NCBI GenBank assembly: GCA_017623115.1
Contig: JAGAPT010000044.1
Location: forward strand, 1-53,620
Length of the DNA: 53,620 bases
Direction of reading: 5' to 3'
Source of the DNA: Alistipes sp.
GTDB taxonomy: Bacteria > Bacteroidota > Bacteroidia > Bacteroidales > Rikenellaceae
Part shown: in pieces, positions 1 through 34,794 of the stretch
Layout: every line of letters starts with the position of its first letter
Numbering within the stretch: the stretch's first letter is position 1
Notes under the pieces: model-generated
What the model was told of the DNA's origin: nothing
Database searches by the model: none
Seen by the model: the letters and a program-made list of their open reading frames with translations, nothing else
Program-made: the position numbers and the translations under genes

Positions 1-221
1 ATCCTGCCGGCGATGCCGACCGATGCTTACGATGTAGACATCACCTTCTGCACGGCTAACGAGGCCAAGCAGTACTCGGTACCGACCTTTGCAGGTGTCA
101 CCTTCGAGCGCAACCACCGCACGAACATCATGGGTTCGCTCTTGACCGATCCCGGTAAGTTCGTCATCGAGATTGACGAGGAGTTTGACGACGAGGATTA
201 CAACATCCTTCCGTGGGATGG
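1..221 (+). repeat. Left arm of long inverted paralogous repeat
   Basis: This segment aligns without gaps to the reverse complement of 53052-53272. Positions 94-191 are identical to 53082-53179 reversed (98 bp). It encodes the conserved end of the N-terminal domain of both edge surface proteins. Confidence 0.9.
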
Positions 222-20721: not shown

Positions 20722-20739
20722 TCATACCATATTATAATT

Positions 20740-21384
20740 ATGGCTAAAGAGAAGATGGAGATTGGTGCCATCTCGAAACCGCGTTTCGAGTTCCGCTCGT
20801 TTGGTCAGTGCTTCTGTGAGGCACACAAGCGTATGGCACGTCTGTCGGTGCCCGTACCCGAGAAGGTGTGGGAGCGCGAGAGCGACGAAATCTATATCAT
20901 TTCGCGCACGAACGATATCAACAACACGAAGATTCGTGATGGCAAGATGGATATCAAGACCTATGTGCAGACCGTTGACGGCCTCGAACAGTGGAATCCG
21001 CTGATGAAGGGCGAGTTCCCGATCGCCGCATCGGTACTCAAAGAGGAGGTATTCCCCGCATTCATGGTCGAGATGCCCGAGCTGACGAAGGAGGTCTACA
21101 CCTACGAGGAGTTTATCTCGATGGTGGAGCAACACCCCGACTTGGCCGCTGTCCGCGTACACAAGCAGCGTTTCGGCTATATGGTCAATGATACGATCTG
21201 CGAGGTAGGTAATGTCCTGATCAACGGCGCAAAGGTCGTTACGATCAACTCCGAATCGACCGAGATCGAGGATATCAAGAAGACGATTGCCGACGTCGGC
21301 TTGGAGGGTGTCGAGAACATCAACTACCTGCAAGCCATCAAGCGCGTGATCGGTATGTCGAACAAACCTTTGGCTAACGAATAA
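20740..21384 (+). CDS. Unrecognised cytosolic protein, possibly CYTH-like
   Basis: A 214-aa soluble protein with no signal peptide or membrane segment, 18 bases after the porin and 5 bases before the CYTH gene, so clearly in the same operon. I do not recognise it with certainty. The N-terminal strand PRFEFRSFGQCF, the pattern SDEIYIISRTND and the Lys/Arg-rich strand TKIRDGKMDIKTYVQ resemble the alternating charged strands of CYTH-type tunnel folds. However, the classic ExExK start is not intact (it reads F-E-F-R). A C-terminal helix-rich part (about residues 150-214) follows. If the resemblance holds, it would be a second, divergent tunnel protein beside the canonical one; otherwise it is simply a conserved operon partner. 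Codon use matches its neighbours. Confidence 0.6.
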   Translation: MAKEKMEIGAISKPRFEFRSFGQCFCEAHKRMARLSVPVPEKVWERESDEIYIISRTNDINNTKIRDGKMDIKTYVQTVDGLEQWNPLMKGEFPIAASVLKEEVFPAFMVEMPELTKEVYTYEEFISMVEQHPDLAAVRVHKQRFGYMVNDTICEVGNVLINGAKVVTINSESTEIEDIKKTIADVGLEGVENINYLQAIKRVIGMSNKPLANE

Positions 21385-21389
21385 GCACT

Positions 21390-21860
21390 ATGGCACAGGA
21401 GATTGAAAGAAAATTCCTCGTGGTGGGCGATTTCAAGCCGGAGGCATTCAAGGCAACCCGCATCATTCAGGGTTACCTGAGTTCGGTTCCCGAGCGCACG
21501 GTACGCGTTCGCGTAAAGGGCGAGAAGGGCTTTATTACCATCAAGGGTATCGGTAGCGCAAGCGGTGCAAGCCGTTTCGAGTGGGAGAAGGAGATCCCCA
21601 CCGAGGAGGCCGAGCAGTTGCTGGCGATTTGCGAGCCGGGCGTGATCGACAAGACGCGCTATCTCGTAAAGTCGGGCGAGCATACCTTCGAAGTAGACGA
21701 GTTCTACGGTGATAACGATGGTTTGACGGTAGCCGAGGTAGAACTTGCATCCGAAGAGGAGGCCTTCGTGAAGCCGGCATGGCTGGGCGAGGAGGTAACG
21801 GGTGATGTGAAGTACTACAACTCGATGCTGATGAAGAACCCCTACAAAAATTGGAAATAA
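21390..21860 (+). CDS. CYTH domain protein (inorganic triphosphatase type)
   Basis: The 156-aa product is a single-domain CYTH/TTM protein. Family members hydrolyse tripolyphosphate or related triphosphates in a metal-dependent tunnel. The hallmark ExExK is present at residues 4-8 (EIERK). The expected charged strands follow: RTVRVRVKGEKGFITIKG, FEWEKEIP, DKTRYLV, FEVDEFYG and VAEVELASEEE. The length is standard for the short bacterial group. It is the third gene of the porin operon and is followed by a strong terminator. Location is cytosolic. In this context a role in breaking down imported or internal short-chain polyphosphate is an inference; the fold assignment is firm. Confidence 0.92.
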   Translation: MAQEIERKFLVVGDFKPEAFKATRIIQGYLSSVPERTVRVRVKGEKGFITIKGIGSASGASRFEWEKEIPTEEAEQLLAICEPGVIDKTRYLVKSGEHTFEVDEFYGDNDGLTVAEVELASEEEAFVKPAWLGEEVTGDVKYYNSMLMKNPYKNWK

Positions 21861-21874
21861 CCAACGACTATGAC

Positions 21875-21908
21875 AACGGAGGGGAGAATTGCTCCCCTCC
21901 GTTTTTTA
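21875..21908 (+). terminator. Terminator after the CYTH gene
   Basis: A 12-bp perfect stem (21875-21886 with 21892-21903) with a 5-nt loop is followed by TTTTT. No clear promoter is seen between it and the SLC13 gene, so that gene may depend on read-through. Confidence 0.9.
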
Positions 21909-21930
21909 ATCCAACAAACTTCCCGCAACG

Positions 21931-23610
21931 ATGAAGGAGCAAGAGAAACAGCAACCTGCGGTGTTCGATCCGCTGGATATGAACAACTATAAAATCGAGA
22001 AGCTGCCCAAAATGGAAAAATCCACTTTTGAGAAGTGGATGGCTCGCTGGGGAGGACCATTGGCAATCCTTGCCTTTATCCTGGTCTATTGGGTTGTGGA
22101 TATACCATTTATCGACAACTTAAAAGAGAGTGATTTTATTCCGGCTGAGGTTGTTGTGGAGCAGGCTGACGGTACGACGATTACCACACAGCCGGCACCC
22201 GACAAGAGTGTCAAAAAGGCGGTGCAGTTTATCCAGACGAATGGCATGGAGGACTTTACGCGTGCCAACTATGCCATGCTCGCCATCTTCTTGGCTGCCA
22301 TCATTTTGTGGATTACGGAGGCAATCCCCAACTATTTGACGGCTCTGCTGGTCATCCTGGGATTGGTGCTCACCGAGGTGACCTCCCAAAAGGAGGCCTT
22401 TGCGCAGCTCGGACACCCCGTTATGTGGCTCAACATCCTTTCGTTTGTCTTGGCTTCGATGCTCGTGAAGACCAAGGCCGCCCGACGATTGGCTCTGTGG
22501 TTTGTCATCCGCTTCGGCCATTCGGCAAGCGGTGTCTTTTTCAGCTTCCTCATTATCAATGTCATCTTGTCGGCATTTATCTCGGCCACGACCGTGAAGG
22601 CTGCGATTCTGTTGCCTATCTTTATGGTTGTCGCCGCTGTGTATGGTGCCTCGAACGGCAATCGCAACAACTTTGGTCGCAACATCGTGCTGCAGAACCT
22701 CTTCCAGGTGAATATCGGTGCCAGCGGATTCCTGACCGGCTCGGGTGCCAACCTGCTGGCTGCATCGCTTATCGGTGGTGCGCTGGGTATCACCTCGATT
22801 AGTTATAGCGATTGGTTTGTGGCGGCCTTCCCGCTGGCTATCCTGCTGCTCTTCATCGGCTGGTGGATTGGCGTGAAGGTCATCTTCCCGATTCCGGAGG
22901 AGGAGCGCAAGCCGCAAATCGAGGGTGGCCTGGCCAAATTGCGGGTCGAACTCGAGTCGATGGGTAAGATGGACCTGGAAGAGATCAAATCGATTGTCAT
23001 CTTCGTGGGTGTCTTGGCAATGTGGGCCACGGATAAACTCCACGGCATTGATGCTACGACCGTCGCCTTCATCGGTGCGGTGATTGCCCTGCTGCCGGGT
23101 GTCGGTGTGGTCAAATGGAATGATGTCGATATTCCGTGGCACCTGATGTTGTTCTCGGCCGGTGCCTACGCCATTGGTGCCGGACTGGATGCTACGGCAC
23201 TCCCGAAGAGCATGGTGGATGTCCTCTTCAACAGCCTCGGCGTGACGGAAGCAACCCCCTTCTGGGTATTGTATTTGCTTTTGACGGCTATGATGCTCTT
23301 CTCGGCGCTGCTCTTCCAGTCGAAGACGATGCGTGCCCTGATTTTCATCCCGATTGCCATTGGTGTGGCGCAGAAGTTCGGCTATCCCATCATGAGTCTG
23401 GCATTCCCCGTAGCCCTCTTGATTGAGCATGTCTATGTGCTGCCCTTCAACTCGAAGCCGGCAGCCCTGCTCTACACGACCAACCACTATAGCTGGAGCG
23501 ATACCTTCCGCTTTGGCTTTACGATGATGATGATTGGCTGGGTGATGATTATCATCTGGGGTGAGACCGTACTGCGTTGGTTGGGATACACGGAGGGGCT
23601 GTTCTTCTAA
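21931..23610 (+). CDS. SLC13/DASS-family anion permease
   Basis: This 559-aa inner-membrane protein has about 12 hydrophobic segments and the layout of divalent-anion:Na+ symporters. A cytosolic N-terminus (~45 residues) precedes the first segment, and a hydrophilic loop (about residues 60-105) precedes FLAAIILWITEAIP, the DASS landmark. The two SNT motifs that hold Na+ and substrate are altered: the first reads ISATTVKAAILLPI (S-A-T) and the second FQSKTMRALIFIPI (S-K-T), so both Asn are missing and a Lys appears in the second. This hints at changed ion coupling. Family substrates include sulfate, phosphate and dicarboxylates. It follows the CYTH gene by 70 bases, across a terminator, and precedes the unknown membrane protein by 32 bases. 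Confidence 0.88.
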   Translation: MKEQEKQQPAVFDPLDMNNYKIEKLPKMEKSTFEKWMARWGGPLAILAFILVYWVVDIPFIDNLKESDFIPAEVVVEQADGTTITTQPAPDKSVKKAVQFIQTNGMEDFTRANYAMLAIFLAAIILWITEAIPNYLTALLVILGLVLTEVTSQKEAFAQLGHPVMWLNILSFVLASMLVKTKAARRLALWFVIRFGHSASGVFFSFLIINVILSAFISATTVKAAILLPIFMVVAAVYGASNGNRNNFGRNIVLQNLFQVNIGASGFLTGSGANLLAASLIGGALGITSISYSDWFVAAFPLAILLLFIGWWIGVKVIFPIPEEERKPQIEGGLAKLRVELESMGKMDLEEIKSIVIFVGVLAMWATDKLHGIDATTVAFIGAVIALLPGVGVVKWNDVDIPWHLMLFSAGAYAIGAGLDATALPKSMVDVLFNSLGVTEATPFWVLYLLLTAMMLFSALLFQSKTMRALIFIPIAIGVAQKFGYPIMSLAFPVALLIEHVYVLPFNSKPAALLYTTNHYSWSDTFRFGFTMMMIGWVMIIIWGETVLRWLGYTEGLFF

Positions 23611-23642
23611 TGCATAGATAGCAAGCGAAATAAGGCGAAACG

Positions 23643-25106
23643 ATGATTGACATTACGACCAAAATACACGATCAGTTTTCGATCGAGTTTAAGGTGGGCT
23701 TTGTGACCCGTCGCAAGATGCGTCACAACGACTTCTCGGTCTATATGTGGATTTTTGTGCCCAATTCGCTGGATATCAACCCGTCGACCTACTCGAAAGC
23801 GAACTTCTATCGGGATGTGAAATCGAATGTGCGCTTGATTACGCCTCGCTATCTGATGCGCGATATTGTCAATGGGAAGGAGTCTCCGGCCGAACGGGTG
23901 CGGCAGGCTATGACCCATATGGCTAGCGATCCGACCCGCACGGCCATTGCCGAATACGAGAGCCAAATCAAGATCTTTGCGGCGATTGTGAAGAGCGCAT
24001 TGCGTGAGGAGGTGCTCCATATCTGCTCGGGCAATCAACAGTGCGAGGATGTATGCCTCCTCTGCCAAGCCTATTGCAGCAATGCCAAGCAGATTCTCGA
24101 TACCTACCGCTCGCTGCGGCAGATTATCAACACCCCGACCATTACGGAACAGGTGCGGGGCTCGTTCCGCTATGGGGATGAGTTTATGAGTTACACGCTC
24201 AATCAGTCGACCTACCGACTCATCAAATGGTTGGCGCAAAACAGGGAACTTTTTGCCGAGCAGATTGAGCAACTATCGCAACTCCTGCGACGGGAAGGGG
24301 AGTATCGGAAGAAGATGAACTACCAGGTGGTCGACAAGGAGGATCGCTTGGAGAATCGCAACTTGATATATACGCACGGAGTGCTGAAAAAATATGTCGA
24401 AAGTGCACTCTATCTGCGTGTCCCCAAGAAGCGCGATGGCGTGATGATTGAGCAGATCTACCTGAGTATTGCCGCCGGCTTGTCGATGATTTTTGCGACC
24501 ATCATCAGCTTCTATTTCCAACAACGATACGGTAATTTTACCTGGCCCTTCTTTGTGGTGCTGGTCATCAGTTACATGGGCAAGGATCGTATCAAGGAGT
24601 TGGCACGCTACTACTTTGCACACCGCAAGGGGAGCAAATATTTCGATAATAAGGCCCGTATCTCGATTGGCGAACGGACGATTGGTTGGATTAAGGAGGG
24701 TGTGGACTTCCTGCAACGGACGAATATTCCACAGGAGGTGATGCGCCTGCGCCAACAACACCCTATCGCCCCGGCCGAACAATTGATTATGGATGATAAG
24801 GTGCTGCTGTATCGAAAATGGGTGCATATCGACCGCGAGCAACTTGTGGCACACAATGTCTACCATACGGATGGTATTAACGATATTATTCGCCTCAATG
24901 TCAACAATTTCATCCACAAGATGGACAACCCGTATATCTCGTTGCCGCAGATTGACGAGGCGAATAACCTCTATCGCGTGAATTGCAAGAAGGTTTACTT
25001 CCTCAATATCATCATGCAGTATCAGTATGATGGCAAAACAGACTATAAACGGTTTCGTGTTTCGCTGTCACGGGCCGGCATAGAATCTATCAAGGAGATG
25101 GAATAA
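23643..25106 (+). CDS. Unrecognised membrane protein paired with the SLC13 permease
   Basis: I do not recognise this 487-aa protein. It has a soluble N-terminal half (about residues 1-275) with a strand-rich start, a run of helices and a cysteine-rich patch (CSGNQQCEDVCLLCQAYC, near residue 130). Two adjacent membrane segments follow (IYLSIAAGLSMIFATIISFY and FTWPFFVVLVISYMG, about 280-320). A basic cytosolic C-terminal half of about 165 residues ends in strands YQYDGKTDYKRFRVSLSR. The four cysteines in CxxxxxCxxxCxxC spacing could bind metal. It lies 32 bases after the permease and is probably co-transcribed with it, suggesting a regulatory or accessory part in transport. Nothing indicates a catalytic site. 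Downstream is the tRNA-Glu promoter. Confidence 0.75.
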   Translation: MIDITTKIHDQFSIEFKVGFVTRRKMRHNDFSVYMWIFVPNSLDINPSTYSKANFYRDVKSNVRLITPRYLMRDIVNGKESPAERVRQAMTHMASDPTRTAIAEYESQIKIFAAIVKSALREEVLHICSGNQQCEDVCLLCQAYCSNAKQILDTYRSLRQIINTPTITEQVRGSFRYGDEFMSYTLNQSTYRLIKWLAQNRELFAEQIEQLSQLLRREGEYRKKMNYQVVDKEDRLENRNLIYTHGVLKKYVESALYLRVPKKRDGVMIEQIYLSIAAGLSMIFATIISFYFQQRYGNFTWPFFVVLVISYMGKDRIKELARYYFAHRKGSKYFDNKARISIGERTIGWIKEGVDFLQRTNIPQEVMRLRQQHPIAPAEQLIMDDKVLLYRKWVHIDREQLVAHNVYHTDGINDIIRLNVNNFIHKMDNPYISLPQIDEANNLYRVNCKKVYFLNIIMQYQYDGKTDYKRFRVSLSRAGIESIKEME

Positions 25107-25272: not shown

Positions 25273-25344
25273 GGTGGATTCATCTAAGGGCTAGGATACG
25301 TGCCTCTCACGCACGACATAGGGGTTCGAATCCCCTATCCACTA
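25273..25344 (+). tRNA. tRNA-Glu (anticodon CUC)
   Basis: The 72-nt cloverleaf folds cleanly: acceptor GGTGGAT with ATCCACT (first pair G-U), D-arm ATCT/GGAT, anticodon stem CGTGC/GCACG with loop CTCTCAC (anticodon CTC), 4-nt variable loop, and T-arm AGGGG-TTCGAAT-CCCCT. The CCA end is not encoded. It reads GAG codons, which are very frequent in this window. Its 3' end is duplicated 214 bases downstream. Confidence 0.93.
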
Positions 25345-25347
25345 CAA
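25329..25347 (+). repeat. tRNA 3'-end direct repeat, copy 1 (att-like)
   Basis: AATCCCCTATCCACTACAA spans the T-loop end through the discriminator base and 3 further bases. It is identical to 25543-25561. Confidence 0.85.
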
Positions 25348-25360
25348 CAACGAAGCAAGA

Positions 25361-25386
25361 AGATGTCGAATTTCGACATCTTTTTG
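25361..25386 (+). terminator. Terminator after tRNA-Glu
   Basis: A 9-bp stem (25361-25369 with 25373-25381), a 3-nt loop and a T-run follow the tRNA by 16 bases. Confidence 0.85.
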
Positions 25387-25542
25387 TTTTTTGGTCTATG
25401 GCGCAAATTGATTTGCTGCCATTAGGCCAAAAAATAAAAAAGGAGATTTATCGGCTACTTGCGGAGTGTCTGTTGTGAAGGCCCCTGCGGCGAGCAGAGG
25501 GGAAAGGCGTAATACGGAGCGACTGTAAGGAGCGCAGTAGTC

Positions 25543-25561
25543 AATCCCCTATCCACTACAA
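25543..25561 (+). repeat. tRNA 3'-end direct repeat, copy 2 (att-like)
   Basis: An exact 19-bp copy of the tRNA-Glu 3' end stands without the rest of the tRNA. Such duplications arise when elements integrate into tRNA genes. The 195 bp between the copies hold the tRNA terminator, a weak 26-codon frame (25398-25478) and small hairpins, but no integrase. Confidence 0.8.
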
Positions 25562-25574
25562 AAGAAACAAAAAA

Positions 25575-25708
25575 TATAAGGAGTGCTAATCGCACTCCTT
25601 TATTTTTTATTCATTCTGAAGCAGTTAGGGCGATTCGCCCCCAATCAAAAACTGTGAAAAATCGGGCGAAATACCGTCCAATCTTCGAAAAATCCTCTGA
25701 GAAGGGGA
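25575..25708 (+). repeat. Left inverted repeat of the B12 cassette
   Basis: Positions 25597-25708 match the reverse complement of the right copy with only two mismatches over about 112 bp. The outer end adds a similar hairpin. The repeat contains the palindrome GGGCGATTCGCCC and carries a terminator at its outer end. The inner end stops 75-100 bases before the B12 promoter. Confidence 0.92.
25580..25611. terminator. Terminator at the outer end of the left inverted repeat
   Basis: GGAGTGC/GCACTCC stem (25580-25586 with 25592-25598), 5-nt loop, then a T-rich tail; A-rich upstream sequence may allow function on both strands. Confidence 0.75.
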
Positions 25709-25806
25709 AGGGGATTGGAGTGATAAATGGGAAGGATGCGATGGGGTGGGTTGGCCAAGTTGCGATTTTTTTCGGCTATTGTGTGCATCCAATAAAAATA
25801 AATTAC

Positions 25807-25814
25807 TATCTTTG
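25807..25814 (+). promoter_or_regulatory. -7 element of the B12 uptake operon
   Basis: TATCTTTG lies about 12 bases before the riboswitch. The -33 position is weak (ATTG/TTGTG near 25778-25784). Confidence 0.75.
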
Positions 25815-25826
25815 CATTACATAAGG

Positions 25827-25996
25827 AGCCTTTACGGACTACGCGTTACGAAAGGTGAAAAGGGAATCCGGTGAGAAACCGGGACAATACCAGTTGCTGT
25901 AAATCCCACTCCGTCAGGAGGTTTTTATCGCACTCTTTGCCACTGATTATAAATCGGGAAGGCGCGATAAAAGGGACAAGTCAGAAGACCTGCCTT
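25827..25996 (+). promoter_or_regulatory. Cobalamin riboswitch
   Basis: The conserved blocks of an adenosylcobalamin-class aptamer occur in order: GGTGAAAAGGGAATCCGGTG, AAACCGGGACAATACC, a GCTGTAAATCC variant, GCCACTG, GGGAAGG, and the B12 box AGTCAGAAGACCTGCC (25979-25994). It sits directly behind a promoter and ahead of a B12 transport operon, so high cobalamin should repress the operon. The downstream 25997-26233 stretch is A/T-rich leader and must contain the expression platform; no clear intrinsic terminator is visible there, favouring translational control. Confidence 0.95.
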
Positions 25997-26233
25997 ATGT
26001 TTTAATGGATCTCTACCTGCTGGGATACGGGTCGAAATCAACATTTTTTAATTGCTTATTTTTTACGATTGTGCGTGGATGGCAAGGGCATATTGCATCT
26101 TGTTATCGCGTAGTTACCACTCCTATTTTTTGTGCGGAGCGGTTTGCTTTGTCCATAGGTATATAGGGCAATCTCGCAGGGGATAAGCAATTAAAACCTA
26201 CTGATTTAGTTGCAACATAACCCGCCCGAGTGC

Positions 26234-26734
26234 ATGGAGACTACCGGTAACCACAAGCAGGATCATCATATCCTGAAAAGTAATATGTGGAAGTTTTTTA
26301 AGGCCCTGCGTGCGCAAGCAAACCCGATCTATTGTTTGCTTGCGGCAAGCCCTATGCGCTATGCGTGGATCTCCATCCACGACAAGGCCGATTCTGCCAA
26401 TCAGCGTCGCATCACCATTGCGCAGTTCGTTAATTCGCTGAAAAAGATCCCTGCGACCGATAAGCACTATCGACTCTCAATCCGCCTCTACGATCCATTA
26501 ACAGACCGAAGCAGCACCTACGAAGCGACCCTTTTGCAGGAGCTCTCGGTCGAGTTGATGCGTAAAATGTTACCATCGATGATCGCCTTTCACTGCGAGG
26601 AGGGCGCTCGGCAGGGCGAGCCTTTCGAGCTTACGCCCCAAATGATCGGGCACTACAAATTCAAGACGCGCTATATCGAAGAATTACAAGAAAACATCAA
26701 CAATTACAACAAGTCAAAAACAACTAAAAACTAA
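26234..26734 (+). CDS. Unknown soluble protein, first gene of the B12 operon
   Basis: The first ATG of this frame is at 26234, giving 166 aa; another candidate start is the ATG at 26285 (MWKFFKALRAQ), and an open TTG precedes at 26210. I do not recognise the product. It has no signal peptide or membrane span and is rich in Arg, Gln and charged helices, with a middle segment HYRLSIRLYDPLTDRSSTYE and a helical C-terminus (FKTRYIEELQENINNYNK). It lies downstream of the cobalamin riboswitch and 6 bases before the micropeptide gene, so it should be B12-controlled. It could be a cytosolic factor specific to this operon or a remnant gene; a function cannot be assigned. Confidence 0.6.
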   Translation: METTGNHKQDHHILKSNMWKFFKALRAQANPIYCLLAASPMRYAWISIHDKADSANQRRITIAQFVNSLKKIPATDKHYRLSIRLYDPLTDRSSTYEATLLQELSVELMRKMLPSMIAFHCEEGARQGEPFELTPQMIGHYKFKTRYIEELQENINNYNKSKTTKN

Positions 26735-26740
26735 CACGTT

Positions 26741-26854
26741 ATGGAGAAACAAAGCTACGAATCTCCCATAATGGAGATCCTGGAAATTGCCGTTGAACAA
26801 GGTTTTGCGGCATCTGAAGAGCAGCAGAACCCCTCGGATTGGGAGGATATGTAA
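26741..26854 (+). CDS. 37-aa acidic micropeptide in the B12 operon
   Basis: A 37-codon frame (MEKQSYESPIMEILEIAVEQ... ending NPSDWEDM) lies 6 bases after the preceding gene and 39 before the lipoprotein gene. It has the look of a Bacteroidales small-peptide group that I know from lipoprotein and fimbrillin-type loci: an N-terminal SPxxEILEIxVEQGFAAS-like helix followed by a short acidic, Pro/Trp-containing tail. There is no signal peptide. It is probably translated because the pattern is protein-like and the spacing operonic. The role is unknown; a modified-peptide precursor, a partner of the surface lipoproteins or a regulator are all guesses. Confidence 0.65.
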   Translation: MEKQSYESPIMEILEIAVEQGFAASEEQQNPSDWEDM

Positions 26855-26893
26855 GGTCAATAATTGTGTATTAAATTAAGGAAATAAACTACT

Positions 26894-28588
26894 ATGAAAA
26901 AGTTATTTACAGCGATGCTGCTATTGGTATCAGCCGTAGCGTGCAACAAGAGCGAAGAATTTACCCGCCAAACAACCGAGCCGCTTGTGCTCACCGGTTA
27001 CTGTGCCGCCGAATCGCGCACCCATTTTGGCACTCCAGGAGCAAGCCAAATCCCCTATTTTTGGAGTGCAGGCGACTATATCTGGCTTGGGAGCGTACAG
27101 AGTAACCCTCTCTCGGAGGATTGTCGTCAAGCGCAGTTTGTGTGGAACAATCCGCCTTCAACGATTGGCGATTTCCACCTTTTCTACAATATGACAGGCA
27201 GCAACAAGACCGCGAAGGTACTTGCCGAGCAGAGTGCCGATGGCAATTTGGGCAACGATGGCGACTTTGGTTATGCGGTTGCCGACGAGTTTGGCATCTT
27301 CTGCCTGGATCATAAGACCTCCTACATCTGGTTTGATACGAAATCGAATGAGCAGTTGCCGATGCTCACGACCATCACCGTTACCGTAGCCGAGGGCTTG
27401 GCATTGGCGGGCGAGTGTGTATTCGACTATGAGAACAACGCCTGGGAGAGTTCGGTTGTGAATGGCACCAATCAGATTACGCTCGATTTTGGCGAGGGTG
27501 TTGCCTTGCAATCGGCCAATGAAGGTGTATTTGCCGCCATGGTTACGCTGCCCGCTGCTATCGGTGGTACGGAGCTGACCGTGGTCTATACCTTTGCCGA
27601 CGGCTCGACATACAGCGAAGTCAAGCAGCCCCAAAAGGACCTTACGGCAGGTGATACGCAGCGTATCAGCACTACCATTGCATTGGCCGATTTGACAAAG
27701 CCAGAACCAGAACTCCCTTACGAGTTGCGTATCTTGACCTTCGAGGATCAGGATGTCAAGTTCTACCCATACACTTTGGACTACGCCGGAGTGGAGATTA
27801 CAAAATGGAGCGAATTGATTGACAATCCTCAGTATGGCGGTCCGCTGACCTATGGAGATTATTCGAATACGGCCTACACCTGGTGGGATGAGGGCAATAC
27901 CGAGCTTTGCCACACCTTCCCGTATAACTACGCCTACTGCTTCTGGGGCGGTGGTCACGCCATCTCAAACTATTGGGGCGAGGGCTGGAGCGACGAAGAC
28001 AGAGATAAGCACATCGCAAAATACTATGGTGAAGACTATGTTACGGAGAATGCAGGCAACGACCAGATGCTTGGTTGGTTCAATCTCCAACTTATGATCC
28101 CGGTAGAGGCCCATTCGGGTAGCAACTTTGCGGTACATTACGGCTATAAAGATGACAACTCGTATGTCGAGAATCTTCCCGAACTTTCGTTCGGTGACGA
28201 TATGGCTCGTGTAATCGACCACATGTGGGTAACCAATACGAACTACACCTTGAATCAATTATACAATGGTGTGAAGAGCGAGGCCGGCAATAGCTTTGGC
28301 GGCAATTGGGAGGGTCTCACAGAGGATGCTTGGTTGAAGCTTGTTGCACAGGGATTTGACGATGTGAATGCCGATGCTTATGCCGAGCCAATCAGCGAGG
28401 TAGAGTTCTACTTGGTGCAGGGCGAAGAGGTTGTGACCGATTGGCAGAAGTGGGACCTGTCGGGTCTTGGGGCTGTCAAAAAGGTTCGCTTCAACTTCCT
28501 CTACTCCGATGAGATGGGTGGCCGCTATGGCTTTACAATCCCTGGTTACTTTGCGTATGATGATATTGCAGTACGCTTTGAAAAATAA
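26894..28588 (+). CDS. DUF4465-like surface lipoprotein of the B12 locus
   Basis: The 564-aa product has a lipoprotein signal (MKKLFTAMLLLVSAVAC, lipidation at Cys17) and so is a membrane-anchored, probably surface-exposed protein. The N-terminal half (about 25-275) is a beta-rich fimbrillin-like domain (SRTHFGTPG...FWSAGDYIWLGS). After a Pro-rich hinge (TKPEPELPYE) the C-terminal half resembles DUF4465: LTFEDQDVKFY, GHAISNYWGEGWSD, FAVHYGYKDD, MWVTNTNYTLNQL and a final GFTIPGYFAYDDIAVRF. DUF4465-like proteins are, to my knowledge, common in Bacteroides cobalamin loci. A role in binding cobalamin or assisting BtuG is inferred from context. The gap to the next gene is 3 bases. Confidence 0.83.
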   Translation: MKKLFTAMLLLVSAVACNKSEEFTRQTTEPLVLTGYCAAESRTHFGTPGASQIPYFWSAGDYIWLGSVQSNPLSEDCRQAQFVWNNPPSTIGDFHLFYNMTGSNKTAKVLAEQSADGNLGNDGDFGYAVADEFGIFCLDHKTSYIWFDTKSNEQLPMLTTITVTVAEGLALAGECVFDYENNAWESSVVNGTNQITLDFGEGVALQSANEGVFAAMVTLPAAIGGTELTVVYTFADGSTYSEVKQPQKDLTAGDTQRISTTIALADLTKPEPELPYELRILTFEDQDVKFYPYTLDYAGVEITKWSELIDNPQYGGPLTYGDYSNTAYTWWDEGNTELCHTFPYNYAYCFWGGGHAISNYWGEGWSDEDRDKHIAKYYGEDYVTENAGNDQMLGWFNLQLMIPVEAHSGSNFAVHYGYKDDNSYVENLPELSFGDDMARVIDHMWVTNTNYTLNQLYNGVKSEAGNSFGGNWEGLTEDAWLKLVAQGFDDVNADAYAEPISEVEFYLVQGEEVVTDWQKWDLSGLGAVKKVRFNFLYSDEMGGRYGFTIPGYFAYDDIAVRFEK

Positions 28589-28591
28589 GCT

Positions 28592-29587
28592 ATGAAAAGA
28601 CTCATAGGATATTTTGTAATAGGTATCGCCCTTGTTATCTCGTCGTCGTGTAATGTGGACGACGAGATAACCACGGATTTGGGTAAAGGCAAATATTACC
28701 GTGCGAGAACGGCTGCATCGAAGGCCGATTGGAACAAGGTTTACGAATACACACCCGCCCCTGGGCAGTTTATCAATGAGCTGAAAACCGGAGGTTTTGA
28801 TGGCACACAGACCACCCCCGAAGCGGCTATCGCCTACGCTGAAACACGCATGGGGGAGGTTGATAAGCAAGGTAATCCCTATCCTAATTGGGTGTCGTTG
28901 GGTGGTTTTGGCGGCTATATTGTAGTAGGCTTTGACCATAGTATCGACAACTCTGGCGGCTATGATATTGGAATCCTTGGCAACTCGTTTAGTGGTTCAT
29001 CCGAGCCGGGTATTGTATGGGTTATGCAAGACGAGAATGGCAATGGTCTGCCCGATGATACTTGGTATGAATTGGCAGGCTCGGAGACAGGCAAGCCCGA
29101 AACAATTCAAAATTATGCCGTAACCTACTATCGCCCAAGCGAGCCAAAGCAGCCCGTAAAGTGGACAGATAATCAGGGTAATAGTGGCGAAATCGATTAC
29201 CTCAAGCAGTTCCACCGACAGGAGTACTACTATCCGTTGTGGATTGAGGAGGATAGTTACACCCTTACGGGTACTTGCTTGGCGGCCCGCAACCATGACG
29301 CTTCGGGTAATGGCTCTTATTGGGTCAATGCGGAGTATGATTGGGGATATGCCGATAACTTTAGCCCTATCGACCGCTTGACCGATGAGGATAATGCCTC
29401 TGCAGGAGCCAATGCCAACCATTTCAGAATTTCGGATGCAATAGACGCCAATGGCAAACATAAAGACCTGGAATACATTGACTTTGTAAAGGTGCAGGTA
29501 GGCGTAAATGCCAAGAGCGGTTGGCTCGGAGAGCTATCTACCGAGGTGCTGGGCTTCTACGATTACAACATGAAAAAAGAGCTGTAA
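28592..29587 (+). CDS. Surface lipoprotein with calcium-type loop, B12 locus
   Basis: The 331-aa protein begins with a lipoprotein signal (MKRLIGYFVIGIALVISSSC, lipidation at Cys20). The body is a compact beta-rich domain: GGFGGYIVVGFDHSIDN, YDIGILGNSFSGSSEPG, and the loop DENGNGLPDDTWYEL, whose D-x-N-x-N-G-x-x-D-D spacing is that of a calcium-binding loop. A conserved C-terminal part has AISDAID-like and YIDFVKVQVGV segments. It lies 3 bases after the DUF4465-like gene and 3 bases before btuG, so the three are translated as a block. I know similar proteins only as cell-surface proteins of unknown function near Bacteroidetes B12 receptors. Cobalamin capture is plausible but unproven. Confidence 0.8.
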   Translation: MKRLIGYFVIGIALVISSSCNVDDEITTDLGKGKYYRARTAASKADWNKVYEYTPAPGQFINELKTGGFDGTQTTPEAAIAYAETRMGEVDKQGNPYPNWVSLGGFGGYIVVGFDHSIDNSGGYDIGILGNSFSGSSEPGIVWVMQDENGNGLPDDTWYELAGSETGKPETIQNYAVTYYRPSEPKQPVKWTDNQGNSGEIDYLKQFHRQEYYYPLWIEEDSYTLTGTCLAARNHDASGNGSYWVNAEYDWGYADNFSPIDRLTDEDNASAGANANHFRISDAIDANGKHKDLEYIDFVKVQVGVNAKSGWLGELSTEVLGFYDYNMKKEL

Positions 29588-29590
29588 AGA

Positions 29591-30664
29591 ATGAACCTGA
29601 AAACTGCAATCAAAGAGCTCTTGCTGCTGCTACTCCTACTCCCTGCCTCATGCATGGAGTGGGAGTATGGACTGCAGGAGAGTTTCAATACGTCGAACTC
29701 GCCCGAGGGGCTGTTTATTACCAACGAGGGAAATTTCCAATATGGCAACGCCACGCTTTCGTATTACAACCCCACCACCAAGGAGGTCGAAAACGAGGTC
29801 TTTTATCGCGCCAATGCGATGAAACTGGGCGATGTAGCGCAGTCGATGGTTATCCGTGACGGCATCGGGTGGGTAGTGGTGAATAACTCGCATGTGGTCT
29901 TTGCCATTGACATCAACACCTTCAAAGAGGTAGGGCGCATCACCAACCTCACCTCGCCACGCTACATCCATTTCCTCTCCGACGAAAAGGCCTATATCAC
30001 GCAAATTTGGGATAACCGCATCTTTATCGTAAACCCCAAACTATATAAAATTACTGGCTATATCGAAGTGCCAAATATGACAATGGAGTCGGGCTCAACG
30101 GAGCAGATGGTGCAGTATGGCAAATATGTATATGTAAACTGTTGGTCGTACCAAAATCGCATTCTGAAAATAGATACCGAGACCGACAAAGTTGTTGACG
30201 AACTTGTTGTAGGCATTCAACCCACTTCGCTTGTTATGGACTGCAACAACAAACTATGGACCGTAACCGATGGTGGCTACGAGGGATCACCCTATGGGCA
30301 CGAGGCACCCTCGCTCTATCGCATTGATGCCGAAACCTTCACCATCGAAAAACAGTTTAGGTTCGACTTTGGCGATTGGCCCTCGGAGGTGCAACTTAAT
30401 GGTACGAAGGACAAACTCTATTGGCTCAACGATGATGTTTGGATGTTGGATTTAACCAAAGAGCATGCGCAGCCCGAAGTCTTTTTGCCCTACGACGGCA
30501 CCTTATATTATGGTCTGACTATCTGCCCGCATACGGGCGATGTCTACATTGCCGATGCCATCGACTATGTGCAGCAGGGGATGGTCTATCGCTACTCCAA
30601 AGAGCGCAAACTCGTTGATAGTTTTTATGTGGGTATCATCCCGGGAGCATTTTGCTGGAAATAA
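29591..30664 (+). CDS. btuG: BtuG-type surface cobalamin-binding beta-propeller lipoprotein
   Basis: The 357-aa product has a lipoprotein signal (Leu-rich, LLLLPASC, lipidation at Cys21) and repeated propeller blades recognisable as GLFITNEGNFQYGNATLSYY, VVNNSHVVFAIDINTFKEVG, KAYITQIWDNRIFIVNP, VYVNCWSYQNRILKIDTETD, LWTVTDGGYEG, LYWLNDDVWMLDL and DVYIADAIDYVQQGMVYRY. Among Bacteroidetes this DUF5074/YncE-like propeller immediately upstream of btuB is BtuG, which captures cobalamin at the surface with very high affinity and hands it to BtuB. The context (riboswitch, btuB 10 bases downstream) supports that role strongly. The start is fixed by the 3-base gap to the previous gene and the signal sequence. 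Confidence 0.9.
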   Translation: MNLKTAIKELLLLLLLLPASCMEWEYGLQESFNTSNSPEGLFITNEGNFQYGNATLSYYNPTTKEVENEVFYRANAMKLGDVAQSMVIRDGIGWVVVNNSHVVFAIDINTFKEVGRITNLTSPRYIHFLSDEKAYITQIWDNRIFIVNPKLYKITGYIEVPNMTMESGSTEQMVQYGKYVYVNCWSYQNRILKIDTETDKVVDELVVGIQPTSLVMDCNNKLWTVTDGGYEGSPYGHEAPSLYRIDAETFTIEKQFRFDFGDWPSEVQLNGTKDKLYWLNDDVWMLDLTKEHAQPEVFLPYDGTLYYGLTICPHTGDVYIADAIDYVQQGMVYRYSKERKLVDSFYVGIIPGAFCWK

Positions 30665-30674
30665 AACGCGTTGC

Positions 30675-32741
30675 ATGATGAAGAGACTGCTATTTATCCT
30701 ATGCACGGCACTGATCCCTTGCGTTGCAGCGTCACAAGAAACGAACACGAGGGATTGGGCAAAAAGAGGGATTCACATCAAAGAGGTAACGGTCTATGGG
30801 CGGCGACCCATGAAAGAGATTGGCACCCAGCAGACCAAATTCGACTCCGTGGTGTTGAAAGAGAACATAGCCCTTTCGATGGCTGATGTGCTGACCTTCA
30901 ACTCCTCGATTTTCGTCAAGAACTATGGCCGAGCTACCCTCTCCACGGTCGCTTTTCGAGGCACTTCGCCCTCGCATACGCAGGTATCATGGAACGGCAT
31001 GAAGATCAATAATCCGATGCTCGGAATGACCGACTTCTCGATGATTCCCGCCTACTTTATCGACGATGCATCGCTGCTGCACGGTACCTCGTCGGTCAAC
31101 GAAACAGGCGGCGGTCTGGGTGGCGCGGTAAAGCTATCGACCAAGCCTGCCAATGCCGACGGCTTTGGGTTGCAGTATATTCAGGGCATCGGCTCGTTCA
31201 AGACCTTTGACGAATTCTTGCGTCTGACCTACGGCAATGAGCATTGGCAAAGCTCGACGCGCGTGGTATTTTCTTCGTCGCCAAATGATTACAAATATCG
31301 CAACCACGATAAGAAGGAGAACATCTACGATGAAAACATGCAGATCATCGACCAATACTACCCCACAGAGCGCAACCGTAGCGGAGCCTACAAAGATCTG
31401 CACCTCTTGCAGGAGGTCTATTACAATACGGGGCGAGGGGATCGATTCGGTCTGAATGCGTGGTATGTCAATTCTAACCGCGAATTGGCGATGCTGACGG
31501 TCGATCACGGCAACGAGACCGACTTCGAGAACCGTCAGCGTGAGCAGACTTTTCGAGGTGTCCTTTCGTGGGACCACCTGCACTCAGATTGGAAGGTGGG
31601 TGCCAAAGCGGGTTATATCCGCACTTGGATGGCCTACGACTATAAACGCGATGTCGGCAATGGTATTATGGCCCACATGACACGCTCACGCAGCCGCATC
31701 AACACCTTCTATGGGCAGGTGGAGGGCGAGTACCATATCGGCAACAAGTGGCTCTTCTCGGCCAACCTCTCCCTGCATCAACACCTTGTTGAGAGCGAGG
31801 ATAAAAATATTTTACGACAAGACGGAAACAAGGCGATTGTGGGCTACCGCAAAGGTCGTCCCGAACTCTCGGGCTCGCTCTCGGCAAAGTGGCGACCAAT
31901 AGATAGATTGGGACTCTCGGTGGTGGTGCGTGAAGAGCTGTTCGGACGGGAGTGGACTCCGATTATACCCGCATTTTTTGTTGATGGTGTGCTTTCGAAT
32001 GTTGGCAATATAACAGCCAAAGCCTCGGTTTCACGCAACTTCCGCTTTCCGACACTCAACGATCTCTACTTCTTGCCGGGCGGTAATCCTGACCTCAGAA
32101 AGGAGAGCGGCTGGACCTACGATGCAGGTCTTTCGTTTGCCATTGGCAAGGAGGGTAGCTATTCACTGAGTGGCTCGGCCAACTGGTTTGAGTCCTTTAT
32201 CAAGGATTGGATTATCTGGCTACCCACCACCAAGGGATTCTTCTCGCCCGAAAATATCAAGGATGTACACGCCTACGGAGTAGAGATGAAGGCAAATTTG
32301 GATATTGTCCTTGCCAAAGAGTGGCAGTTGGGGCTGAATGGCACCTTCTCGTGGACCCCCTCCATCAACCGAGGCGAACCCCGTACCCCTGCCGACCAAT
32401 CGGTAGGCAAGCAGCTACCCTATGTCCCCGAATTCTCTTCGACCCTTAGTGGCAACCTCTCGTGGCGCCGATGGACCTTGCTTTATAAGTGGTGCTACTA
32501 CTCCGAGCGATTCACAATGTCCTCGAACGATCTTTCGCTGACGGGCAAACTGCCCCCTTACTTTATGTCAAACTTTTCGCTCGAAAAGGTCTTGACGTTC
32601 CCATGGGCAGACATTTCCTTGAAAGGTGCGATTAACAACCTCTTCAACGAGGAGTACCTTTCAGTTCTCTCCCGCCCCATGCCGGGCATCCACTTCGAGA
32701 TATTTATAGGTATCACTCCAAAGTGGGGCAAGCATAAGTAG
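30675..32741 (+). CDS. btuB: BtuB-type TonB-dependent cobalamin receptor
   Basis: This 688-aa outer-membrane receptor imports cobalamin using TonB energy. After a signal peptide (MMKRLLFILCTALIPCVAASQ) comes a TonB-box-like strand HIKEVTVYGRRP. The plug domain follows (MADVLTFNSSIFVKNYG, TVAFRGTSPSHTQVSWNG, GGGLGGAVKLSTKP), then a barrel with FPTLNDLYFLPGGNPDLR, the landmark seen in most TonB receptors, ending NNLFNEEYL...GIHFEIFIGITP. I chose the ATG at 30675 (30678 is equally possible), because the open frame back to 30540 overlaps btuG and lacks a signal. It closes the riboswitch-controlled operon, and the right inverted repeat begins 75 bases beyond the stop. Inner-membrane BtuCDF genes are not in the window. 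Confidence 0.92.
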   Translation: MMKRLLFILCTALIPCVAASQETNTRDWAKRGIHIKEVTVYGRRPMKEIGTQQTKFDSVVLKENIALSMADVLTFNSSIFVKNYGRATLSTVAFRGTSPSHTQVSWNGMKINNPMLGMTDFSMIPAYFIDDASLLHGTSSVNETGGGLGGAVKLSTKPANADGFGLQYIQGIGSFKTFDEFLRLTYGNEHWQSSTRVVFSSSPNDYKYRNHDKKENIYDENMQIIDQYYPTERNRSGAYKDLHLLQEVYYNTGRGDRFGLNAWYVNSNRELAMLTVDHGNETDFENRQREQTFRGVLSWDHLHSDWKVGAKAGYIRTWMAYDYKRDVGNGIMAHMTRSRSRINTFYGQVEGEYHIGNKWLFSANLSLHQHLVESEDKNILRQDGNKAIVGYRKGRPELSGSLSAKWRPIDRLGLSVVVREELFGREWTPIIPAFFVDGVLSNVGNITAKASVSRNFRFPTLNDLYFLPGGNPDLRKESGWTYDAGLSFAIGKEGSYSLSGSANWFESFIKDWIIWLPTTKGFFSPENIKDVHAYGVEMKANLDIVLAKEWQLGLNGTFSWTPSINRGEPRTPADQSVGKQLPYVPEFSSTLSGNLSWRRWTLLYKWCYYSERFTMSSNDLSLTGKLPPYFMSNFSLEKVLTFPWADISLKGAINNLFNEEYLSVLSRPMPGIHFEIFIGITPKWGKHK

Positions 32742-32815
32742 TATCATTTCAGGGGCTATAATCGTGTTCCGTGGGGCATCATACGGCTCTCGCTAAGTAA
32801 ACCTGTTCATCCCCA

Positions 32816-32950
32816 TCCCCTTCTCAGAGGATTTTTCGAGGATTGGACGGTATTTCGCCCGATTTTTCACAGTTTTTGATTGGGGGCGAATCGCCCTAAC
32901 TGTTTCAGAATGAATAAAAAATAAAGGAGTGCCAATTGCACTCCTTTATT
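32816..32950 (-). repeat. Right inverted repeat of the B12 cassette
   Basis: The reverse complement matches 25575-25708 with two mismatches over the 112-bp core plus a related terminal hairpin. The terminator end faces outward, so the pair encloses promoter, riboswitch and all B12 genes (about 7.1 kb). The remainder of 32742-33183 holds the pckA promoter and leader, and no gene. Confidence 0.92.
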
Positions 32951-32959
32951 TTTTTTTGA
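32926..32959. terminator. Terminator at the outer end of the right inverted repeat
   Basis: GGAGTGC/GCACTCC stem (32926-32932 with 32938-32944), 5-nt loop and a long T-run; the preceding A-run makes it potentially bidirectional. It would end the B12 operon transcript. Confidence 0.82.
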
Positions 32960-33041
32960 TTACTCCCGCGAGATGTGCATCATTTTTTCTTTTCGGTTAA
33001 TTTTTTAATTGTTATTTTTTTCACAAATGTAAAACTTTTCC

Positions 33042-33049
33042 TATCTTTG
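33042..33049 (+). promoter_or_regulatory. -7 element of pckA
   Basis: TATCTTTG with only a T-run at the -33 distance; the leader would be about 130 nt. Confidence 0.7.
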
Positions 33050-33066
33050 TACCGATGAAAAAGGGG

Positions 33067-33137
33067 CTTTTGCGAAGGTGATGGGGCGCGAGGCGTAATA
33101 AGCTGAGGGTCAGTCGCAAAAGGAAGGCTCGTTTTTT
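33067..33137 (+). promoter_or_regulatory. Structured leader of pckA
   Basis: A 9-bp stem pairs CTTTTGCGA (33067-33075) with TCGCAAAAG (33114-33122), enclosing about 38 nt. A T6 run follows at 33132-33137, 9 bases after the stem. It could be an attenuator or a regulator-binding leader; it matches no riboswitch I know. Confidence 0.5.
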
Positions 33138-33183: not shown

Positions 33184-34794
33184 ATGATCGACAAGAAAGA
33201 TTTGAAGAAGTACGGTATTACCGGCGTAGAGGAGATTGTCTACAACCCCTCGTACGACGAGCTCTACCGTGAGGAGACGAAGAAGGGTCTGCGTGGCTTT
33301 GAGAAGGGTCAGGAGACCGAGATGGGTGCTGTGAACGTGATGACGGGTGTCTACACCGGCCGTTCGCCCAAGGATAAGTTCTTCGTGATGGACGAGACGA
33401 CGAAGGATACCGTATGGTGGACATCGCCCGAGTATAAGAACGACAACAAGCCCGTAACGAAGAAGGCTTGGAAGGAGTTGAAGAAGATTGCCGTGAATGA
33501 GCTTTCGGGCAAGAAACTCTACGTCGTAGATACCTTCTGCGGTGCCAACGAGAATACGCGCCTCAAGATTCGCTTCATCATGGAGGTGGCTTGGCAGGCA
33601 CACTTCGTGAAGAACATGTTCATCCGTCCGACCGATGCCGAGCTCGAAACCTATGGTGAGCCTGACTTCGTGGTGCTCAACGCCTCGAAGGCCAAGGTGA
33701 AGAACTACAAGGAGCTGGGTCTGAACTCGGAGACGGCCGTTGTCTTCAACCTCACGGAGAAGATGCAGGTAATCATCAACACCTGGTATGGTGGTGAGAT
33801 GAAGAAGGGTATGTTCTCGTACATGAACTACCTGCTTCCGCTGCAGGGTATCGCCTCGATGCACTGCTCGGCCAACACGAACGAGAAGGGTGAGACGGCT
33901 ATCTTCTTCGGCCTGTCGGGTACGGGTAAGACGACGCTGTCGACCGACCCGAAGCGTCAGCTCATCGGTGACGACGAGCACGGCTGGGACGATGATGGTG
34001 TATTCAACTTCGAGGGTGGCTGCTATGCCAAGGTGATCAACCTCTCGAAGGAGAACGAGCCCGACATCTGGAACGCTATCCGTCGCAACGCCCTGTTGGA
34101 GAACGTAACGGTGGACAAGAAGGGTAAGATCGACTTCTCGGATAAGTCGGTTACGGAGAACACCCGCGTATCGTACCCCATCTTCCACATTGACAACATC
34201 GTGAAGCCCATCTCGAAGGCTCCGGCTGCCAAGAAGGTGATCTTCCTCTCGGCCGACGCATTCGGTGTGCTGCCTCCGGTGTCGATTCTCACGCCCGAGC
34301 AGACGAAGTACTACTTCCTGTCGGGCTTCACGGCCAAGTTGGCCGGTACGGAGCGCGGTATCACGGAGCCCACGCCGACCTTCTCGGCTTGCTTCGGTGC
34401 TGCCTACCTGTCGCTGCACCCCACCAAGTACGGTGAGGAGCTCGTGAAGCGCATGGAGAAGTCGGGTGCTACGGCCTACCTCGTAAATACGGGTTGGAAT
34501 GGTACGGGCAAGCGTATCTCGATTAAGGATACGCGCGGTATCATCGACGCCATCCTCGATGGTTCGATCGATAACGCTCCGACGAAGCAGATCCCGATGT
34601 TCGACTTCAAGGTGCCGACCGCTCTGCCGGGTGTTGATCCCACAATTCTCGACCCGCGCGACACCTACGCTGACGCTGCTCAGTGGGAGGTGAAGGCCAA
34701 GGATCTCGCAGGTCGCTTCGTGAAGAACTTCCAGAAGTTCACGGGTAACGAGGAGGGTAAGAGCCTTGTTGCTGCCGGTCCGAAGATTGACTAA
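33184..34794 (+). CDS. pckA: Phosphoenolpyruvate carboxykinase (ATP)
   Basis: The 536-aa cytosolic enzyme interconverts oxaloacetate and phosphoenolpyruvate with ATP/ADP. In anaerobic Bacteroidales it usually runs toward oxaloacetate, fixing CO2 and making ATP on the way to succinate. The kinase P-loop [16 protein letters not shown], the metal site region [13 protein letters not shown] and the R-G-I-T-E-P block near the C-terminal third are all present. Also visible are [11 protein letters not shown] at the N-terminus and [18 protein letters not shown] before the P-loop. Length is standard and codon bias indicates high expression. It has its own promoter and a structured leader, and is followed by a strong terminator, so it is monocistronic. 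Confidence 0.98.

Follow-up and report, generated by a model that had tools for sequence, protein, structure and literature searches.

The DNA analysed here, a stretch of 53,620 nt from an Alistipes sp. draft genome (contig JAGAPT010000044.1; hereafter the window), carries a vitamin B12 uptake operon that is enclosed, downstream of a tRNA-Glu gene, by two inverted copies of a long sequence (the left and right arms; Table 1). The enclosed unit has a cobalamin riboswitch, a BtuB-type receptor and a B12-binding protein, the components of a Bacteroidota B12 transport locus. As an inverted pair, the arms (25569-25715 and 32809-32955) are 147 nt long, 94% complementary and separated by 7093 nt; blastn placed the pair at 25565-25715 and 32957-32809 with 94.7% identity. 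The longest exact match between the left and right arms was 62 nt, while the longest exact inverted match in 20 block-shuffled windows was 14-20 nt. An initial sequence-only reading had described repeats of ca. 112 bp with two mismatches, and this is a fair description of the core, as the arm segments inward of the terminator (107 nt) are 97% alike. It had also placed a terminator at each outer end; in agreement with this, a terminator-like hairpin with a T-run on either strand stands at the outer end of both arms, and four arm pieces folded with z-scores of -4.45 to -6.67 against shuffled sequences. The riboswitch begins 92 bp past the end of the left arm, the btuB stop (32741) precedes the right arm by 68 bp, and the copy of the tRNA-Glu 3' end lies directly against the left arm. 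The initial reading had noted neither the tRNA nor this copy. Only two inverted pairs were found in the whole window (blastn, word size 20), namely, the arms and a pair at the contig ends. In the window genome (60 contigs, 2.19 Mb), the arm matched two places only, while a third reported match came from the right arm itself, whose palindromic hairpin had been read in reverse.

The best match of the arm outside its own genome was found in a sister species (G024), whose phosphoenolpyruvate carboxykinase (PEPCK) is 96% identical to that of the window. G024 has two inverted arms 1.3 kb apart, which match perfectly over 167 nt with a sharp divergence at both ends, and the outer edge of one of them lies at the exact 3' end of the same tRNA-Glu. 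This tRNA gave one match each in the window genome and in G024, and the genes beyond it correspond between the two (a 378-aa radical SAM/HemN_C protein, 61%; a 1416-aa glycogen synthase/phosphorylase protein, 90%). Between the G024 arms lie genes for an AbiEii nucleotidyltransferase and an HTH/DUF6922 protein, which, judged by family and gene order, resemble a type IV toxin-antitoxin pair. One boundary pair, thus, encloses B12 uptake in the window species and a toxin-antitoxin pair in G024. Moreover, at alignment columns 79, 94, 97, 153 and 156, the two arms of each genome agree with each other, and the window genome (G000) differs from G024, indicating that the arms were gained or homogenised as a pair. 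Since the same arm pair stands at the same tRNA-Glu with other cargo, an observation we regard as decisive for exchangeable cargo, we favour with moderate confidence the view that the feature is a horizontally acquired, exchangeable cargo cassette, which occupies an insertion hotspot at the tRNA-Glu 3' end and is bounded by terminator-bearing terminal repeats.

Table 1 Features at the tRNA-Glu hotspot and in the enclosed B12 uptake operon (window coordinates)
Feature	Position	Strand	Description
tRNA-Glu (CTC)	25273..25345	+	hotspot anchor; one match in own genome
Small unit, 197 bp	25346..25542	+	between tRNA-Glu and the copy of its 3' end; own terminator-like hairpin
Copy of tRNA-Glu 3' end, 19 nt	25543..25561	+	identical to 25329-25347 (17 nt inside the tRNA); core-type repeat
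Left arm	25560..25715	+	outer edge abuts the tRNA 3'-end copy; bidirectional terminator stem 25578-25600
Cobalamin riboswitch	25807..26011	+	RF00174, 91.4 bits
Possible small gene, 174 aa	26210..26734	+	no family match; weak homologues in 7 of 80 other btuB loci
DUF4465 protein, B12-binding domain	26894..28588	+	Pfam match; BtuH-like, named by analogy
331-aa lipoprotein-like protein	28592..29587	+	no family match; between DUF4465 and DUF5074 genes in many related loci
DUF5074 protein	29591..30664	+	family match
BtuB-like TonB-dependent receptor	30540..32741	+	family match
Right arm	32809..32955	-	inverted copy of the left arm; terminator stem 32916-32954, 17 pairs
Conserved upstream region of PEPCK gene	33014..33077	+	native right flank
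PEPCK	33184..34794	+	right neighbour

The arm was searched first in 61 genomes and then in 180 genomes of the genus. A sequence-only model built from 20 arms (R1) matched 52 of the 180 genomes at E ≤ 0.001, many of them through the hairpin alone. The set used for classification comprised 29 arms from 23 genomes that matched beyond the hairpin or lay at an informative place; hairpin-only matches and the arm of G027, which lacks the outer half, were excluded. Fourteen of the 29 arms start 1-3 bases after an intact tRNA (tRNA-Glu or two kinds of tRNA-Arg) and seven abut a tRNA 3' fragment, so that 21 adjoin one or the other; the remaining eight, including the right arm of the window and the far arm of G024, lie by neither. 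From the arm edge inward, the sequences of G015 and G036 are 94% alike for 1.09 kb, where a contig ends, but outside the arm G015 has tRNA-Arg and G036 has unrelated DNA; the outer edge is, therefore, precise. When the first 112 nt of 14 arms from nine genomes were compared, identity within a genome was 100% (G024), 95% (G142), 94% (G000), 88% (G113) or 61% (G063), and between genomes 51-96%.

Some genes adjacent to arms elsewhere resembled defence genes: seven of ten proteins matched PADLOC defence models, including AbiEii, type I restriction with an OLD/AriA-like ATPase, FRG, Fic/BRO and GIY-YIG, although this is no test of enrichment since the proteins were picked by hand from five loci. 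In G063, 10 kb of DNA (L217:7416-17549) lies between inverted arms at a tRNA-Arg fragment; its products include a Tubulin_2 protein and another that bears a papain-like protease domain. Neither gave a PADLOC match, and they are a candidate for an undescribed conflict system.

The B12 locus itself varies in place among close relatives. Five genomes with PEPCK at 96-97% (G008, G020, G024, G027 and G034) have btuB genes only 55-56% like that of the window, and the window genome has a second btuB of this distant kind (53%); btuB at 80-89% occurred in 30 of the 179 other genomes of the genus by our own count. The enclosed operon is a second B12 uptake operon in this genome and was probably gained by transfer. 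Its riboswitch end was found in G027 (95%) and G008 (91%). Since the locus breaks off at contig edges in both, the lack of a close btuB in them may be an assembly gap. In G027, the riboswitch is accompanied by the inner 112 bp of the arm and lies beside a bile-acid-symporter-family gene, and in G008 it stands without an arm beside another gene; the B12 locus or its start, thus, occupies three sites in three sister species. The initial reading had held that a repeat found at many unrelated sites, together with a locus fixed in place, would speak against a cassette; neither was seen in this comparison, which was made among sister species rather than strains of this species.

B12 loci appear to settle at tRNA 3' ends more widely, as is suggested by 79 loci with enough sequence, six of which (L021, L023, L065, L081, L090 and L095) have a tRNA no more than 400 bp beyond btuB (seven tRNAs, all with the 3' end facing btuB). 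From the tRNA density of these loci (17 in 1.41 Mb), 0.38 tRNAs were expected; since the loci are related, this count is no formal test. Sixteen plasmid records carried btuB, with 75% as the best identity. Horizontal transfer of btuH, and earlier of btuB, has been proposed among gut Bacteroidetes (PMC8941943). The initial reading had thought a repeat-bounded cassette a plausible way of moving such loci, but arms do not accompany B12 mobility in general: blastn detected none in the 80 btuB loci fetched from named genomes, and the riboswitch of G008 is without one.

Based on these results, a working model may be outlined as follows. The tRNA-Glu 3' end is most likely an additive insertion site. 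The two-way terminator of the left arm would end the tRNA transcript and shield the cargo from tRNA read-through, provided that the hairpin terminates transcription in the cell. The right arm would close the cassette and shield the PEPCK promoter from the operon, the conserved sequence upstream of PEPCK starting at ca. 33014. The arm pair would be moved or exchanged as a unit, either through a recombinase provided in trans or because the arms serve as sites of homologous recombination. The 197-bp unit would have been added later between tRNA-Glu and the cassette, the B12 cassette having arrived earlier, as in an additive genomic island. Relatives of this unit are found 3' of tRNA-Glu in G093 and G005 (74-75%), partly in G015 and G028, and in two copies in G029; they form a family of tiny tRNA-targeted units. 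Of 30 tRNA-Glu loci scanned, five, among them the window, have the tRNA 3' end repeated no more than 650 bp from tRNA-Glu.

The other side of tRNA-Glu is variable too, since genes for a porin, a CYTH protein, a sodium:sulfate-symporter-type protein and a 487-aa protein lie between the radical SAM gene and tRNA-Glu in the window (19225-25106), and only a 230-aa open reading frame (ORF) without a family match is present at that place in G024. In G126 (L219:9780-10500), a reversed arm adjoins a tRNA-Glu 3' copy with its inner end and the near arm is lacking, which indicates that the modules of the hotspot are shuffled.

Several observations weigh against reading the feature as a simple mobile cassette. 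At the locus itself, no target duplication was seen at the arm edges when the flanks were compared by eye, and no tRNA 3'-end copy stands at the right end of the B12 cassette, the window containing two copies in total with up to three mismatches allowed. Columns 62, 125 and 150 distinguish the left arm of the window from the right one. PEPCK, adjacent in the window, lies 39 kb away from the far arm in G024, and in G020, G027 and G034 it and tRNA-Glu are on separate contigs; G024 and G027 also show rearranged gene order near the hotspot relative to each other. The B12-side arm of G027 has the states of G024 at columns 94 and 97 and those of the B12-carrying G000 at the inner columns 153 and 156; because of this mixture, the arms follow neither host nor cargo cleanly. 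Among btuB loci in general, a flanking inverted match was present in only 9 of the 70 testable ones (16-74 nt; 10 loci with too little flank were excluded), the longest being that of L071, where part of the operon is inverted. Long arms are, thus, not usual for B12 loci, and inverted repeats as their general border were rejected.

Within the genus, most arms are single, which likewise counts against the cassette. Clear inverted pairs in one contig were limited to G000, G024 and G063 (in the last ca. 60 nt, with 61% over 112 nt). G086 and G142:C99 have weaker inverted partners dominated by the hairpin, G084 and G161 gave double matches in the same orientation, and no partner arm was reported in G015, G064 and G110 despite long inner sequence. 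The second arm of G113 lies on another contig, where the gene neighbours hint at direct orientation. The other two arms of G142 are at contig ends, and a cargo contig linking them was not found. Arms are shortened in G034, G110 and G127 and stop at different points, and because of these differing endpoints they look like products of decay. Furthermore, no match to PF00589 (tyrosine recombinase) was obtained between paired arms.

Two routes to an exchangeable cassette were considered, and we lean slightly towards homologous recombination, rather than an arm-acting recombinase, as the agent of exchange. According to the first, which we hold plausible but tentative, certain tRNA genes have the arm as their resident 3' tail, an inverted duplication or a rearrangement produced the far arm, and the cargo is swapped by homologous recombination while gene conversion keeps the arms alike. 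This would account for the arms being mostly single and beside tRNAs, for the G024 states in the B12-side arm of G027 and for the rearranged gene order between G024 and G027. It fits less well with the G000 states in the same G027 arm; besides, the same outer edge at several tRNAs and the arms without a tRNA need some mobility of the arm.

According to the second route, which seems unlikely although worth considering, a non-autonomous element of the mobile insertion cassette type, which prefers tRNA 3' ends and has the arms as its long terminal inverted repeats, is moved by a transposase or recombinase encoded elsewhere. The perfect 167-nt arms of G024 with their sharp edges, the precise outer edge with different outer flanks in G015 and G036, and the absence of a recombinase inside agree with this, whereas the missing target duplication, the failure to find a parent element with arms plus a transposase, and the predominance of unpaired arms do not. 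A wider proposal, that the arms represent an undescribed family of recombinase-less, terminator-capped cassettes of this genus that home precisely to several tRNA 3' ends and shuttle B12 uptake, toxin-antitoxin, restriction and other defence cargo by means of a recombinase encoded elsewhere, is a possibility we consider somewhat unlikely.

Candidate movers were sought among the genes of the window and beside arms elsewhere. The absence of a transposase or recombinase inside the cassette, claimed at the outset, was confirmed by a Pfam scan of the five ORFs between the arms; none was found among the other 30 main ORFs of the window either (35 scanned overall), and PF00589 had no match in the window and seven elsewhere in its genome. 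No integrase was consistently present beside arms across the 14 genomes searched: G086 has an integrase match 1.1 kb from the 5' side of tRNA-Arg, and the best (XerD-like) match of G110 lies ca. 10 kb inside the single arm of that genome. In G024, a gene for a 500-aa serine recombinase (L097:8072-9574) is located 289 bp outside the far arm and adjoins a Fic-domain gene. Its Ccr-like matches are weak and far under the cut-off, and two relatives at 39-40% were found in viral contigs. It was rejected as a common mover, the fetched loci containing no full relative and only a 47-residue fragment in L084.

The initial reading had left open whether the cassette is mobile or invertible. A discrete, insulated cassette made by transfer is supported by the cargo of G024, the uniqueness of the repeat and the changing place of the B12 riboswitch locus; invertibility is not. 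Inverted arms of 147 nt could in principle recombine and flip the operon on or off, and terminal-repeat inversions are reported for insertion sequences (PMC3004938). However, the riboswitch lies inside the stretch that would be inverted, so a flip would not part it from its genes; the 35 window ORFs include no recombinase; and the few comparable loci with B12 genes plus an arm (G000 and G027) show no inverted form. Such a switch is, therefore, unsupported and very improbable. Even less credible is an ordinary intergenic repeat, or two unrelated terminators without a cassette, since the hairpin alone does recur as a short match in the genus, but the arm has two places only in its own genome, its similarity runs ca. 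100 nt beyond the hairpin, and the same pair surrounds other cargo in G024. An artefact of assembly is just as hard to credit, for the genome is indeed a draft of 60 contigs with 3.1% estimated contamination, yet the arms differ at several sites and the separate assembly of G024 shows the same architecture.

The arm was also compared with known sequence classes. It had no match among phages and plasmids, and viral contigs had no match to one exact degenerate arm pattern; a phage or plasmid end as the identity of the arm was rejected on these grounds. For 25340-25760, cmscan gave six matches to known RNA families, all under the gathering score. RNAalifold returned no consensus pairs in the arm fold, but this is no strong negative since the aligner put some hairpins in the wrong place.

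The cassette shares traits with several systems. The additive flexible genomic island at tRNA-Lys of Methylophilaceae contains recurring copies of the last 20 bp of that tRNA (PMC10872708). Additive tRNA islands of this kind resemble the present locus in that units with variable cargo follow one another at a tRNA 3' end and are separated by copies of its final ca. 17-20 bp, and here too a tRNA 3'-end copy delimits inserts. In contrast to them, the B12 cassette is closed distally by the near arm repeated in inverted orientation instead of by a tRNA copy, and its arms bear bidirectional terminators. Mobile insertion cassettes such as MIC231 and mic-qnrD have inverted repeats around passenger genes and no transposase (PMC3913671). 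The same arrangement is seen here, with no transposase among the five ORFs between the window arms or the two cargo genes in G024, but the arms are 147-167 nt long compared with 24 bp in mic-qnrD, are tied to tRNA 3' ends and lack a target-site duplication. Tycheposons are tRNA-anchored cargo elements (PMC10872708), which likewise have a tRNA at the border and nutrient-related cargo; unlike them, the present cassette contains no tyrosine recombinase, and its arms are inverted.

BoCTn, a Bacteroides conjugative transposon, carries a B12 transport locus (Frye et al. 2021, cited in PMC11005914). In both cases a B12 transport locus would be spread by transfer, but the window contains no conjugation or integrase genes, and the locus is bounded by arms at a tRNA. 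In cassettes of the staphylococcal cassette chromosome (SCC) type, cargo is exchanged at one chromosomal site by Ccr serine recombinases. Exchange of cargo at one site, and the serine recombinase with weak Ccr matches near the far arm of G024, recall this type; no such recombinase gene is present in the window. Islands marked by tRNA ends, transposase-less cassettes with inverted repeats and a B12 locus on a conjugative transposon are, thus, already known, while no description of tRNA-anchored, terminator-capped inverted arms was found among the open-licence papers searched.

B12 transporters play an important part when gut Bacteroidota compete with one another, and a conjugative transposon has been shown to spread them. 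If the cassette is exchanged as proposed, a small tRNA-anchored slot with built-in terminators would allow single operons to be swapped with the neighbours undisturbed, and nutrient uptake and phage defence would share one exchange system. The cargo between two arms would then be expected to vary among strains of one species.

With regard to the genes of the operon, the TonB-dependent receptor gave a weak match to TIGR01779, under its cut-off, which fits BtuB. Judged from its alignments, its true start is probably near 30675, since many homologues align only from ca. residue 45. The DUF5074 protein is presumably BtuG-like. DUF4465 domains bind B12 (PMC13398666).

The second inverted pair of the window (1-222 and 53051-53272; 89-90% alike) lies near both contig ends, in two large ORFs, one of which has a beta-helix match. 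This pair is perhaps the reason why the contig stops there.

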